64,000 nt of DNA, taken from positions 248,001-312,000 of the forward strand of contig NZ_FNQZ01000001.1 of NCBI RefSeq assembly GCF_900107545.1, in the 5' to 3' direction. This stretch comes from Pseudobutyrivibrio sp. ACV-2. Its GTDB lineage: Bacteria > Bacillota > Clostridia > Lachnospirales > Lachnospiraceae. A model generated the notes under the pieces. That model was given only the letters and a program-made list of their open reading frames with translations, was not told the origin of the DNA and did not search any database. Of this stretch, positions 20,662 to 24,601 are shown piece after piece. A program made the translations under genes and the position numbers. Each line of letters begins with the position of its first letter. Within the stretch, counting starts at the first letter, position 1.

Positions 20662-20681
20662 AAAAACCTTTATTTTAAAGG
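20662..20681 (-). terminator. Weak terminator of the cyclic-nucleotide operon
   Basis: A 6-bp stem CCTTTA/TAAAGG (20667-20672 with 20676-20681) and, on the minus strand, a five-T tract, 13 bases after the DUF4340 gene. Confidence 0.55.
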
Positions 20682-20693
20682 GATATACCAATT

Positions 20694-21269
20694 CTACAGC
20701 TGTATCAAATCTTCTATCGCATATTCCTCAACCAATGACAATTTGCCACTATTAATATATATTGTAGAGAAATCATAATTGATAGAAAAATAGGCTTGCT
20801 TTTTATCTTCATCATAATTTCCAATAGAAATAATTATTGTACTTCCAGAGGAATCTGTAACTCTGTATTCTTTCGCTGACTCGTCAATTCCATAGCTTTT
20901 GGCATCAACATCTGTTAAAATTCCAATACATCTAACGTCGCATAAATAATTAAGCACCTTATCTATTCTTTCTTCGCTAATATCTAAGGACGTGTTGTCG
21001 ATACAAATCCACTCACCATCTGTATTTTCAAAATTTAATAATAACCCATTGGCATCAGTCAGAGTAAATTCATGAACATCATCTTTTGGAATAAGAAAAA
21101 CCTGTTCTCCTTTATCCTTTTTTTGACTTTCTTTATCCAATACTTCTGCACGATCTGCACCACCTGTTGAATTCATATTACTTTTTGAATATAGAATAAT
21201 CATTAATACCAGTATTCCAATCCCTATTAATGCCACAATCAGTTTAAATATATTACTCTTGTTTTTCAT
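20694..21269 (-). CDS. Membrane-anchored DUF4340-like protein
   Basis: A 191-residue protein with a basic start and one N-terminal membrane helix (about 8-28), then an extracytoplasmic region with repeated beta-strand pattern. The segment with LCDVRCIGIL...SYGID...YRVTDSSGSTIIISIGN is typical of DUF4340, a family of unknown function often found beside ABC exporter subunits; here there is none. ATG 21269 is chosen because GGGGG lies just upstream. Last gene of the cyclase operon, 31 bases behind the TIM-barrel gene. Confidence 0.75.
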   Translation of the reverse strand: MKNKSNIFKLIVALIGIGILVLMIILYSKSNMNSTGGADRAEVLDKESQKKDKGEQVFLIPKDDVHEFTLTDANGLLLNFENTDGEWICIDNTSLDISEERIDKVLNYLCDVRCIGILTDVDAKSYGIDESAKEYRVTDSSGSTIIISIGNYDEDKKQAYFSINYDFSTIYINSGKLSLVEEYAIEDLIQL

Positions 21270-21300
21270 TGCATCCCCCAATAATTTTTGCTTAAAATTT

Positions 21301-22095
21301 TTAAGACGTACCGAATAAATTATTGTTTTTTAAGAATTCTATTGATCGAATAACATTTTCTATCCCGCCAACCTCAAGAGTCATTGGGATTTTTCTTTTC
21401 ATAGCTCGCCACAATTTATCAACCATTTGCCAGTCTATGTTACCATCCCCCAAAGAAAAATGATCATCATACACACCCATATTATCAGACAAATGAATAT
21501 ATCCTATTCTATCTCCCACATACTCAAACCACTTTTCAATAGGTACATTAGAATAATTAGCATGGCCAACATCTAGACATACACCTATTTTATTATTTTT
21601 TGTGATATCCATCAAAGATTTTATTGGGATAGGATCTATATCCGGACTATTTTCTATAAATATATTTAAATTATATTCTTCAACCAATTCTTCATAAAAA
21701 TCTGCACAAAGAGCAACCCATCCTTCCATATAGGTGCCCCTTAAGTAATGAAAACAACTAGAATGAAAAACTACATTTGAGACTCCCAAATATGTAGCTG
21801 CTTTACAGCTTTGGCGGCATTTTTCTTTAGAAAGTTCTCTAATTTTACTATCACTGCTGGCCGGATTAACATCTATAAAACATCCGTGAACAGACGTGGC
21901 CAAACCAGAATTTGCATATCTTTTCAAACAACTGTCGAAAGACCCGCCCTCATTGAGAGCGGGTGGCAATGACAGTTCCAACACCTCAAATCCAAGGCCT
22001 TCACTTTCAGCAAGAGCCCGCCACTTTTTAAAAGCAGTTTTTGTGGGTTGTACCTGTAATATATCATTAGTATCAATTTGATTTTTATTAAACAT
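21301..22095 (-). CDS. Sugar-phosphate isomerase/epimerase-like TIM barrel
   Basis: A 264-residue xylose-isomerase-like TIM barrel. Likely metal ligands sit on successive strands: HSSCFH, IENSPD, CLDVGHAN, YIHLSDN with a following DDHFSLGDGNIDW, and LEVGG near the end. Relatives isomerise or epimerise sugars, inositol derivatives or ketoacids, and some act as endonuclease IV; the substrate cannot be told from sequence. It overlaps the cNMP-binding gene by eight bases and lacks a good ribosome site, indicating translational coupling. Confidence 0.85.
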   Translation of the reverse strand: MFNKNQIDTNDILQVQPTKTAFKKWRALAESEGLGFEVLELSLPPALNEGGSFDSCLKRYANSGLATSVHGCFIDVNPASSDSKIRELSKEKCRQSCKAATYLGVSNVVFHSSCFHYLRGTYMEGWVALCADFYEELVEEYNLNIFIENSPDIDPIPIKSLMDITKNNKIGVCLDVGHANYSNVPIEKWFEYVGDRIGYIHLSDNMGVYDDHFSLGDGNIDWQMVDKLWRAMKRKIPMTLEVGGIENVIRSIEFLKNNNLFGTS

Positions 22096-23065
22096 AAAGT
22101 TTGCTCTGAGAATTATTCACCTGCTTTGTAGAATCAACACTTACAGATTCAATTTGTTCTGCATTATAAATATCAAATACCATTTTACATGCATCTATAT
22201 ATGCTACTGTAAGCTTTCTAAGTCTTTGAGAAATATGTTCCATAATCATCTCAACCTTAGGTGGATTTTTCTTAAACAGTTCCTCCAAATCCTTTAAATA
22301 AATGGTCTCAATAACCGTATCATCCTCCAAAACAACTGCAGTTGCACTGTGACGATCATCTTCAAGCAAACCCATTTCACCAAAGAACTCATCTGCATGC
22401 AGCTCTGCTAAAAGTTTTTCATTTGAACGACCATAATTTTTAAAGATACCAACTCTACCTTGATGCACATCATACATGCAATCTCCGAATAACCCTTCCT
22501 TGAAAATTATAGTCCCCTTTGAAAAGCTATCAATATTTTTTGAATAGCCTTTGGCATGAGTTATATCGTCCAGCTGTCGTAATGTCTCCACACTGTTAAT
22601 TTCTGACATATTTTTATTTGCCTTTGAAACATTTACAAACTTTAGGATTTTATTAACTAACCCTTCACTTCTACCCGATTTGTCTTTTCCTGACCTAAGC
22701 TCAGCAATTGTATTTGTTACATCATCATAATCATTTGTAAGCTCGCGTAATCTACTACAAAGATTCTTCATAATTTCAGCGATTTTATCTGGCTGTGAAT
22801 CAAAATATTTTCCAATCTCAGTTGGAGAAATTTCAAAAACAGTAGTAGTCTCCAACGCAACTACAGATGCACTACGTGGGTAAGCTTCAATAACAGCCAT
22901 CTCACCAAAAAACTGATTTTCACCCAGCTCGGTTAGCATAACCTGGTCGGCTTCTCCATAGTTAACATACACGCCAACGGATCCTTTTTTAATCTGATAC
23001 ATGTTATCCCAAATTGCTCCTTGACGTAATAATACTTCACCCTTCTTGAAATTTTTCTCGATCAT
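22088..23065 (-). CDS. Tandem cyclic-nucleotide-binding domain protein
   Basis: A 325-residue soluble protein with two CRP-type cyclic nucleotide-binding domains (about 1-120 and 175-295) joined by a charged linker; no DNA-binding helix-turn-helix and no catalytic domain follow. The phosphate-binding cassette of domain 1 is canonical (FFGEMAVIEAYPRSAS, Glu55 and Arg64). In domain 2 the glutamate is kept (Glu230) but the phosphate-contacting Arg is His239. The layout resembles a PKA regulatory subunit without a kinase in view. It follows the cyclase gene by 78 bases, with AAGGAGG before ATG. Confidence 0.9.
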   Translation of the reverse strand: MIEKNFKKGEVLLRQGAIWDNMYQIKKGSVGVYVNYGEADQVMLTELGENQFFGEMAVIEAYPRSASVVALETTTVFEISPTEIGKYFDSQPDKIAEIMKNLCSRLRELTNDYDDVTNTIAELRSGKDKSGRSEGLVNKILKFVNVSKANKNMSEINSVETLRQLDDITHAKGYSKNIDSFSKGTIIFKEGLFGDCMYDVHQGRVGIFKNYGRSNEKLLAELHADEFFGEMGLLEDDRHSATAVVLEDDTVIETIYLKDLEELFKKNPPKVEMIMEHISQRLRKLTVAYIDACKMVFDIYNAEQIESVSVDSTKQVNNSQSKLYV

Positions 23066-23143
23066 AATTTCCTCCTTGATAAATACATTATTAACCCCGA
23101 ACCTACACCTGTGAGATATCTAAGGTTTTACCTGTGTCCTACT

Positions 23144-24475
23144 TCAAAACAATTTTTTATATGTTTCATCAAGTTCTTCCGTATTGGATGTGAAACATAT
23201 TTTATAAATATCATCTTTAACATCGATAACTTTAGCATATAAATTGTCACACAAGTTGCACACTATATTCTGTTTATCAAGAAGTTTTACATCCGTTTGC
23301 AGTAAAGCATATCTCTTATCTTCAGATAATGCCAAAATGACAGCTTTATTCTCCTTTGTCTCTACAGCTTTATCCTTTATAAGATGGATTATAACATCAA
23401 TTTTTGTTTTGGGATATTTCCAGCAAATATCTTCATTTTCGCATTTGATATTTAAATCTCCTACACCTCGAATATCAAATATTTGTATCTCGTGAGTTCC
23501 TCCTTTTGGGAATATTTTTAACGCATTATTTATTATTAAATCGGAGTCTATTAGATTTTTCGTATACTCCGAAATATAAATCTGCCCGCCGATTGTATAT
23601 GATTGAATTCTTCCAGCAAGATTCACCGTCTCGCCCATACACCCATATTTCGTCTTTTGCCTGGAACCAATATTACCAACAACAACTATACCTGAATTAA
23701 TTCCTATTCCCATTTCTAATGCCGGAAACCCATTTAAAACATTCCATTCATTAACGGATTGCATTGCATTTTCCATCTCAACGGCACAGGCTACAGCATG
23801 AGATCCATGGCCCTCATCTGCTTTAGGTGCGCCAAACAAAACAAAAATACCATCTCCAAGAAACTCTATAACACTACCTTTATATTTTTCTATAATGCTT
23901 ACCATTTTTTCAAAATAATGGTTAAGCATTTTAATTAAATCTGTAGGATTAAGCTTTGTGCTTAAAGCCGTAAATCCCCTTATATCACTCATTAAAATAG
24001 AGCATTCACACTGCCTGCCACCAAGTGCCTCGCCATCCGGATTATTTAATATAAAATCTGCAATTTCAGGTGATGTATAACGTTCAAACGCAAGATTAAC
24101 CCTAATGAATTCTGTAAGATCATTGAGCAACGCGATGTATATTATTCCACCATTGCTTGCGTTAGCAGATGTCATGCTCACTCTAAGCTTAAAGATTTTA
24201 CCTGCTTTATTTTCATAATCCACATACCCCTGATGATAAACCATCTTCTGTTCAGCGCAATCGATAAACAATTGAATTAAGTCATCATTTTTTTCCTTAT
24301 AAGGGATGTATGTCCATATTTTTTGCCCAATTAGTTGGCTATCATCAATATCCAGCAATGCTCTCGCAGCGGGATTTGTATATATCAAACCTCCCCACCT
24401 ATCCATAACGCATACAGCATCCTTCATATTTGTAAAAATAAATTCCGAATCGACCTGATTTAATTCCACTTCCAT
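23144..24475 (-). CDS. PAS-class III adenylate/guanylate cyclase
   Basis: A 443-residue soluble protein: PAS-like sensor domain (about 10-130), the FERYTSPEIADFIL linker typical of class III cyclases, a catalytic domain (about 155-330) and a 110-residue C-terminal beta-rich domain that could be PilZ-like (weak). The metal aspartates are present (Asp164 in MSDIRGF, Asp208 in LGDG), as are the transition-state Asn285 and Arg289. The purine-selecting lysine is replaced by Glu204 and the second selector position is Gly278. It should make cAMP or cGMP; which one is open. Start at ATG 24475 with GAGG upstream. First gene of a four-gene operon. Confidence 0.92.
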   Translation of the reverse strand: MEVELNQVDSEFIFTNMKDAVCVMDRWGGLIYTNPAARALLDIDDSQLIGQKIWTYIPYKEKNDDLIQLFIDCAEQKMVYHQGYVDYENKAGKIFKLRVSMTSANASNGGIIYIALLNDLTEFIRVNLAFERYTSPEIADFILNNPDGEALGGRQCECSILMSDIRGFTALSTKLNPTDLIKMLNHYFEKMVSIIEKYKGSVIEFLGDGIFVLFGAPKADEGHGSHAVACAVEMENAMQSVNEWNVLNGFPALEMGIGINSGIVVVGNIGSRQKTKYGCMGETVNLAGRIQSYTIGGQIYISEYTKNLIDSDLIINNALKIFPKGGTHEIQIFDIRGVGDLNIKCENEDICWKYPKTKIDVIIHLIKDKAVETKENKAVILALSEDKRYALLQTDVKLLDKQNIVCNLCDNLYAKVIDVKDDIYKICFTSNTEELDETYKKLF

Positions 24476-24507
24476 AAAATACCTCAAAAACCTCTCATTT
24501 GAGTGAT

Positions 24508-24538
24508 ATTATAGCAACAAGTGCGTAATAAGTGTTAA
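24508..24538 (-). promoter_or_regulatory. Candidate promoter of the cyclase operon
   Basis: Minus-strand TATAAT (24508-24513) with a TTAACA-like -35 (24533-24538) at a long 19-base spacing, placed between the purA terminator and the cyclase start. Confidence 0.5.
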
Positions 24539-24571
24539 TCCAGATGATTATTTCACAAATTAAACACAAAC

Positions 24572-24601
24572 AAAAAAGGCCTGTAGGAAAACCTACAAGC
24601 C
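24572..24601 (-). terminator. Intrinsic terminator of degV-purA
   Basis: A 10-position stem with one mismatch (24578-24587 with 24592-24601), an AAAA loop and six T on the minus strand, seven bases past the purA stop. Confidence 0.85.

Follow-up and report, generated by a model that had tools for sequence, protein, structure and literature searches.

Closest Described Systems

Several described systems resemble a locus of Pseudobutyrivibrio sp. ACV-2 (Lachnospiraceae), which was analyzed here within a stretch of 64,000 nucleotides (contig NZ_FNQZ01000001.1, positions 248,001 to 312,000; hereafter the window). Four open reading frames (ORFs) on the minus strand, flanked by purA and rpsO, encode a PAS-linked class III nucleotide cyclase, a protein with two cyclic nucleotide monophosphate (cNMP)-binding domains in tandem (the receptor), an AP-endonuclease-2 TIM barrel, and a membrane-anchored protein. 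All four had been pointed out by an earlier reading made without database searches (the sequence-only reading), and all of them are present as ORFs, the first three with Pfam support. These three form a mobile-looking unit, probably a cyclic-mononucleotide cassette, in which the barrel may be the enzyme that removes the messenger.

The cyclase has its closest solved sequence in the guanylyl cyclase Cya2 of Synechocystis (2w01), with which it shares the class III core and the same Glu/Gly pair. According to the available text of PMC5995499, Cya2 has an extracellular CHASE2 sensor, whereas the enzyme of the window, a soluble protein with a PAS domain, belongs to a Lachnospiraceae genome and has receptor and barrel genes linked to it. 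The cyclic GMP (cGMP) pathway of Xanthomonas campestris (XC_0250/XC_0249) also contains a guanylyl cyclase gene linked to a gene for a cNMP-domain receptor, as described in the accessible part of PMC3770947. That receptor is fused to a GGDEF output, whereas the receptor of the window is a stand-alone, tandem protein. The word "phosphodiesterase" is absent from the main text of PMC3770947, whereas the window has a linked barrel.

The barrel shares the AP-endonuclease-2 fold with the cobamide phosphodiesterase CbiR, the function of which was likewise first deduced from gene context (PMC7733943, accessible text), and CbiR was its best NCBIfam match (NF041277). An assignment to CbiR was nevertheless rejected, as the score of 60.3 bits was below the curated cut-off of 105 and the neighbors were cyclases, not cobamide genes. 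The fold and nine metal ligands are those of endonuclease IV (nfo), but this identity was rejected as well (TIGR00587, 26.5 vs. 129.65 bits), and the same genome has a separate endonuclease IV (L261). By sequence and fold, the closest solved barrels were TTHB071 (3ayt) and MJ1311 (3wqo), which have the same ligands as far as the alignments reach and whose records call them uncharacterized or epimerase-like. The receptor has two cNMP domains in tandem, as do the PKA regulatory subunit and PKG, which provided its best Foldseek matches by E-value. However, the TM-scores of the first ten matches were 0.22–0.27 (by query) and the pLDDT of the model was 75, so that the domain arrangement is unsupported.

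In the literature searched, outside which many subscription papers lie, no paper connects cyclic mononucleotides with a barrel of the AP-endonuclease-2 superfamily, and nothing was found on what the class III cyclases of Lachnospiraceae do.

A Conserved Three-Gene Unit

When 29 genomes belonging to the genus were searched with the cyclase, the receptor, and the barrel, each search gave the identical five genomes; two identical sets of five would arise by chance with a probability of 8e-6, if the genomes were independent. The cyclase (CYC), cNMP-binding (CNB), and barrel (TIM) genes occurred in three orders, CYC-CNB-TIM, CNB-TIM-CYC, and TIM-CYC-CNB, and the trio was also found in another genus (G079). 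The sequence-only reading had made its model depend on conserved linkage in related genomes, and the linkage held; that the three genes are a conserved, linked unit is almost certain.

The 8-base overlap between the receptor and barrel genes, also noted earlier, is real, and it was seen in all four genomes in which the tandem receptor gene directly precedes the barrel gene (that of the window, G079, G209, and G207). Because of this overlap, joint production of the two proteins is probable. At locus L053, a single-domain receptor gene was located 16 bases from the barrel gene, with no overlap. The barrels of genomes G206 and G213 were distant relatives, with 21 and 18% identity to the window barrel, respectively. 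The tandem receptor was rare: at E ≤ 1e-30 it was found in two of 200 sampled genomes of the family, and in addition in G334, beside a cyclase (L056).

The Cyclase and Its Predicted Product

The window cyclase matched PF00211 and possesses Asp168, Asp212, and Asn289/Arg293, as a class III enzyme should; the two Asp residues are the metal-binding residues of this class. The Asn/Arg pair is the transition-state pair of class III cyclases (PMC4215837, accessible text). The best solved matches were the Cya2 E488K chimera 6fht (6e-57) and Cya2 itself (6e-52), and the substrate-specificity pair of the window enzyme, Glu208/Gly282, corresponded in the alignment to the E-G pair of 2w01. E-G is given as the specificity pair of Cya2 in the available part of PMC4215837, and the single change E488K turns Cya2 into an adenylyl cyclase, as stated in the accessible part of PMC5995499.

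Matches to PF00211 numbered 77 and came from 67 of 397 Lachnospiraceae genomes. The 81 loci compared here comprised the surroundings of all 77 matches and four further members of the genus, some of them cut by contig ends. The first specificity position could not be read in six of the 81 cyclases and the second in ten, and these were retained as unread. A Lys/Thr pair was present in 57 of the 81; Glu occupied the first position in 18, comprising 10 with Glu/Gly, 2 with Glu/Asn, and 6 with the second position unread. A tree of the "quick" kind with 78 of the 81 rows (L071, L072, and L127, with unreadable specificity residues, were left out) showed two strongly supported groups, one of 19 rows that includes the window (E-type) and one of 59 rows that are mostly CHASE2 cyclases (K-type). 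Of the 19 E-type members, 18 have Glu as the first residue of the pair, and the nineteenth is unread. The Glu/Gly pair and the relationship with Cya2 favored a guanylyl over an adenylyl cyclase, and cGMP is thus the likelier product, a prediction that we hold with reasonable confidence.

A GAGG motif is located just upstream of the ATG at 24475, and the gene probably starts there and not at the TTG at 24487. Behind the catalytic domain there is a C-terminal region of ~100 residues (23144–23440), which is common to relatives and had no Pfam match above the cut-off; its resemblance to a small beta-barrel domain is an impression only. In PHROGs, only unnamed families were matched, and these on the cyclase.

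The Metal Site of the Barrel

The window barrel scored 84.5 bits against PF01261 (gathering threshold 31.1), and its structure model had a pLDDT of 93.7. It contains the nine ligands of the endonuclease IV type: H70, H111, E148, D175, H178, H201, D210, H212, and E241. In endonuclease IV, nine such ligands bind three metals. All nine were invariant in the 36 cyclase-linked barrels and present in all 50 rows of the barrel tree, six of which belonged to the second tier of matches. As a control, 15 other PF01261 proteins were taken from the match list, hand-picked and not random, six of them named by the NCBIfam scan. All nine ligands occurred in only two of these, both deoxyribonuclease IV by NCBIfam; two had eight ligands, and 11 lacked three or more. 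By sequence, the predicted site of the barrel is of the endonuclease-IV/CbiR phosphodiesterase type, not the reduced isomerase-type set.

No domain of a known cNMP phosphodiesterase was found in the barrel, for which Pfam gave AP_endonuc_2 alone above the cut-off. The genome search for known phosphodiesterases covered class II only (PF02112), and it gave no match above the cut-off in the 44 carrier genomes and one weak match in G268. A viral scan for which the window barrel was the only query gave no match. At one locus (L065:8277-10574), the barrel was fused to a GAF-HD_5 protein, which elsewhere is often the next gene.

The Barrel Follows Cyclases

Neighbors were counted as genes on the same strand within 4.5 kb of the cyclase, which places the opposite-strand barrel of L090 outside the count. 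An AP_endonuc_2 barrel was found at 35 of the 81 cyclase loci, and a cNMP-binding gene was found at 12 of these 35. The barrel is therefore more closely tied to the cyclase than to the receptor. Unseeded clustering of 852 neighboring ORFs also made the barrel the second most frequent neighbor (34 of the 81 loci). Among short cyclases (<560 residues) it was the most frequent one, at 12 of 19 loci, and it accompanied 22 of the 62 longer cyclases.

A profile (A1) was built from the 36 cyclase-linked barrels, and the core cut of E ≤ 1e-77 was chosen after the gap to 1e-57 had been seen. Core barrels were present in 39 of the 397 genomes, all of them among the 67 cyclase genomes, and in none of the 330 genomes without a cyclase (hypergeometric 4e-36, not corrected for relatedness; the genomes are related, and counts of genomes are not counts of independent events). 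Seven core barrels were found otherwise than by adjacency, six elsewhere in the genome and one at 5.4 kb, and all seven belonged to cyclase genomes (3e-6). The 39 genomes contained 119 PF01261 matches at E ≤ 1e-5, about three each, and the barrel was the sole one in five of them.

Beyond these genomes, 77 of the best 80 of 334 barrel relatives in named genomes had a cyclase in the same stretch, as did 48 of the 49 stretches of at least 12.7 kb among those 80; the query rows of this search were mostly CHASE2-linked barrels. A class-wide sample of 291 genomes gave four matches at E ≤ 1e-45 outside the family. One of them (G682) had the order CYC-TIM-CNB, and the other three had no cyclase in the stretch examined.

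In the barrel tree, barrels linked to E-type cyclases occurred in three places: the clade of the window, a clade that lies within the CHASE2-linked barrels, and the type found in G206 and G213. The labels changed three times, as many times as the starred branches force, and E/K labels alone gave two changes; the tree cannot distinguish gains from losses. As both Lys/Thr and Glu-type cyclases are linked to it, the barrel accompanies predicted adenylyl as well as predicted guanylyl cyclases. The link between cyclase and barrel was formed or retained across barrels that differ strongly from each other, and in our judgement this outweighs the p-values.

The Receptor and Other Readers

An alignment of seven proteins of the receptor type showed that they share both cNMP domains. 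The Glu and Arg of the phosphate-binding motif were kept in all seven in domain A, and the Arg of domain B was kept in six. In the window protein, His239 replaces this Arg, and the second site may therefore be weak or altered. The receptor had been described as lacking a DNA-binding, kinase, or channel domain, and Pfam bears this out, giving the cNMP domains only and no TIR or other further domain above the cut-off. No membrane segment was noticed in it, although no membrane-segment predictor was run. The genome of the window (an assembly of 3.66 Mb) has one class III cyclase and six cNMP-domain matches, two of which are the receptor.

Other cyclase loci use other readers: a cNMP domain with a SpoIIE phosphatase (L087, L096, L102, and L231) or with DUF2225 (L069, L102, L112, and L222), and some of these loci also hold STAS and HATPase genes. 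That indicated that the outputs change, while the cyclase and the barrel stay.

The clusters at L087, L099, and L102 consist of a CHASE2-type cyclase, a barrel, a cNMP-domain gene, and STAS and HATPase genes. The cNMP gene carries the SpoIIE phosphatase in L087 and L102 and was not typed in L099. These clusters resemble a partner-switching pathway under the control of a cyclic nucleotide. A family with no Pfam match at E ≤ 0.01 (L015 tested) adjoined STAS and HATPase genes close to the module in three genomes of the genus (Table 1).

Proposed Mechanism and Alternatives

We propose, with slightly more than even confidence, that the locus is a writer-reader-eraser cassette, with the barrel as the enzyme that hydrolyzes the messenger. 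The soluble, PAS-regulated cyclase would make a cyclic nucleotide, most likely cGMP, and the stand-alone protein with two cNMP domains would bind it. The TIM barrel, with its nine-ligand metal site, would hydrolyze the messenger to the linear monophosphate and reset the signal. The receptor may also gate the barrel as a feedback, shaping a pulse; complex formation between the proteins and any output are likewise what we infer rather than observe. That the barrel is the phosphodiesterase for the product of the window cyclase appears to us an evenly balanced proposition. The wider reading is held a little more tentatively, just short of even: the cyclase-linked barrels of Lachnospiraceae would be a new class of cNMP phosphodiesterases, unrelated in fold to the known ones, which serves Cya2-type and CHASE2 cyclases, and the window would be a cGMP cassette whose receptor may gate the eraser.

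Two findings weigh against this proposal. No same-strand barrel was found within 4.5 kb at 46 of the 81 cyclase loci, and barrels with the same ligands also occur without a cyclase. Of the 27 genomes with second-tier barrels, 26 had no cyclase match. The exception, G334, carries the cyclase and tandem receptor together at L056, and its barrel, of the G206/G213 type, is at a separate locus (L229). Cyclase-free barrels would also suit an output enzyme on an unrelated substrate, such as a sugar, nucleic acid, or cofactor phosphodiester, which the receptor switches in the manner of a PKA regulatory subunit. The overlap of the two genes in all directly adjacent cases is in keeping with such an enzyme, and relatives in the superfamily act on DNA, cobamides, and sugars. 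However, 23 of the 35 barrel loci had no nearby cNMP-binding gene and were still linked to a cyclase, and core barrels were absent from genomes without a cyclase, which makes the output enzyme rather unlikely. The stronger tie of the barrel to the cyclase fits messenger turnover better than the role of a downstream target. Control of the barrel by the receptor, part of the simplest model proposed before, is still allowed by the 8-base overlap.

Within the same cassette, the messenger might instead be cyclic AMP (cAMP), if the locus were an ordinary cAMP module and Glu208/Gly282 were not diagnostic in this lineage. K-type cyclases that are accompanied by such a barrel show the Lys/Thr pair of adenylyl enzymes, and residue swaps in other cyclases often just reduce activity, according to the available text of PMC4215837. 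The Glu found at every readable first position of the window's cyclase group, together with a guanylyl cyclase of the same pair as nearest solved relative, makes cAMP unlikely. A further alternative is an anti-phage system like Pycsar, in which infection triggers the cyclic nucleotide and the cNMP-binding protein is the effector. The PycC and TIR-effector models of PADLOC matched both proteins, at best with 1.8e-18 for the cyclase and 3.8e-22 for the receptor. Sister E-type cyclases adjoin TIR proteins (TIR_2 in the four tested), and at three of these loci (L059, L063, and L070) there is a barrel as well. These matches, however, span the cyclase and cNMP domains only, as is expected of any relative. 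Known Pycsar effectors carry TIR or membrane parts; the window receptor has no TIR domain by Pfam, and no membrane part was noticed in it. A PAS sensor and a dedicated hydrolase would also suit regulation better, and we consider defense very unlikely. The interval between purA and rpsO accepts inserts, with different cargo in G207 and G209, so the three genes could in principle be unrelated neighbors in a hot spot beside purA. In G206 and G213, however, the trio is located elsewhere in the genome, and it recurs in another genus (G079), with the order changed; this repeated linkage refutes the assumption of chance neighbors.

Boundaries of the Locus

The sequence-only reading had described a four-gene operon with a terminator on each side; the unit comprises three genes. 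The fourth ORF is indeed membrane-anchored, but its DUF4340 label is weak (18.9 bits vs. the Pfam cut-off of 25). Of the 29 genomes searched within the genus, 26 had a match to the protein, among them all 21 of good quality, and the order purA-DUF4340-rpsO was found at 16 of 20 loci examined. Among the other four were three carriers of the trio (the window, G207, and G209) and one locus without purA in the stretch. The trio is located between purA and the DUF4340 gene in the window and between the DUF4340 gene and rpsO in G207 and G209; in G206 and G213 it is on other contigs, and the purA-DUF4340-rpsO interval is intact. Because the DUF4340 gene is near-universal in the genus and the position of the trio varies, the former is a resident neighbor of purA, ruled out as a member of the module, and the latter is an insert. 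The upstream terminator, after purA, was recovered, whereas the scan from 20694 to rpsO found none, its sole hairpin being weak (Table 1). The interval of G207 also carries a fusion of a GH5 cellulase domain with a cellulose-synthase-like glycosyltransferase (L018:5522-8680).

Table 1. Features of the locus (positions in the window unless a locus is named).
Feature	Position	Strand	Remarks
PAS-linked class III nucleotide cyclase	23144..24487	-	447 aa; PAS and Guanylate_cyc PF00211, E=2e-28
Cyclase catalytic domain	23534..24007	-	residues 161-318; nearest solved relative Cya2 (6fht chimera, 2w01)
Tandem cNMP-binding protein (receptor)	22088..23065	-	325 aa; PF00027 in two stretches, E=7e-39
cNMP-binding domain A	22802..23056	-	phosphate-binding motif Glu55 and Arg64 present
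cNMP-binding domain B	22265..22528	-	Glu230 present; His239 in place of Arg
Overlap of receptor stop and barrel start, 8 bases	22088..22095	-	shared by 4 of 4 genomes in which the tandem receptor gene directly precedes the barrel gene
AP_endonuc_2 TIM barrel	21301..22095	-	264 aa; PF01261, E=1e-23; candidate cNMP phosphodiesterase
DUF4340-like membrane-anchored protein	20694..21281	-	resident purA neighbor in the genus, outside the module
Intrinsic terminator-like site after purA	24578..24601	-	upstream limit of the module
Weak hairpin and U run after the DUF4340 gene	~20667..20681	-	possible terminator, z=-0.93, not significant
Members of the family without Pfam match	L015:1451-2686, L016:13642-14856, L017:6189-6719

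Related Operons

At six loci (L055, L059, L061, L062, L063, and L070), an E-group cyclase with a different N-terminus adjoins a TIR-like protein, typed as TIR_2 by Pfam in L055, L061, L062, and L070 and by sequence appearance in L059 and L063. All six are sister operons, and three of them (L059, L063, and L070, in G188, G361, and G313, respectively) also carry a GAF protein and the barrel, in the order TIM-GAF-TIR-CYC; the GAF protein was a GAF-GGDEF protein where tested (L059). These operons are possibly a cyclic-nucleotide/TIR system distinct from Pycsar.

A hydrolase of the metallo-beta-lactamase fold was counted as a neighbor at 14 of the 81 cyclase loci, all with long-type cyclases (L075, L078, L092-L095, L098, L110, L111, L118-L120, L122, and L125). 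It was typed as Lactamase_B_2 by Pfam in L078, L118, and L125. None of the 14 had a barrel within 4.5 kb, and a GAF-HD protein and FecR-like genes were often near. The Lactamase_B_2-like hydrolase is another candidate cNMP phosphodiesterase. A phage enzyme of the metallo-beta-lactamase fold is reported to degrade cyclic mononucleotides. The mutual exclusion of barrel and hydrolase (raw Fisher p=1.7e-4) was rejected as evidence of functional displacement, as it is mostly one split of the cyclase tree (three changes). Beside the distant-type barrel in G206 and G334, there was a MatE transporter with a C-terminal HATPase_c_2 fusion (L016:11407-13191 and L229:4275-6038).

Significance for Lachnospiraceae

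Class III cyclases were present in about a sixth of the Lachnospiraceae genomes sampled. If the proposed role of the barrel is true, it would represent a new class of phosphodiesterase and the off-switch for these pathways, and cGMP would become a candidate for a messenger in Clostridia of the gut. Bacterial cGMP signaling would then be extended to a dominant family of the gut.

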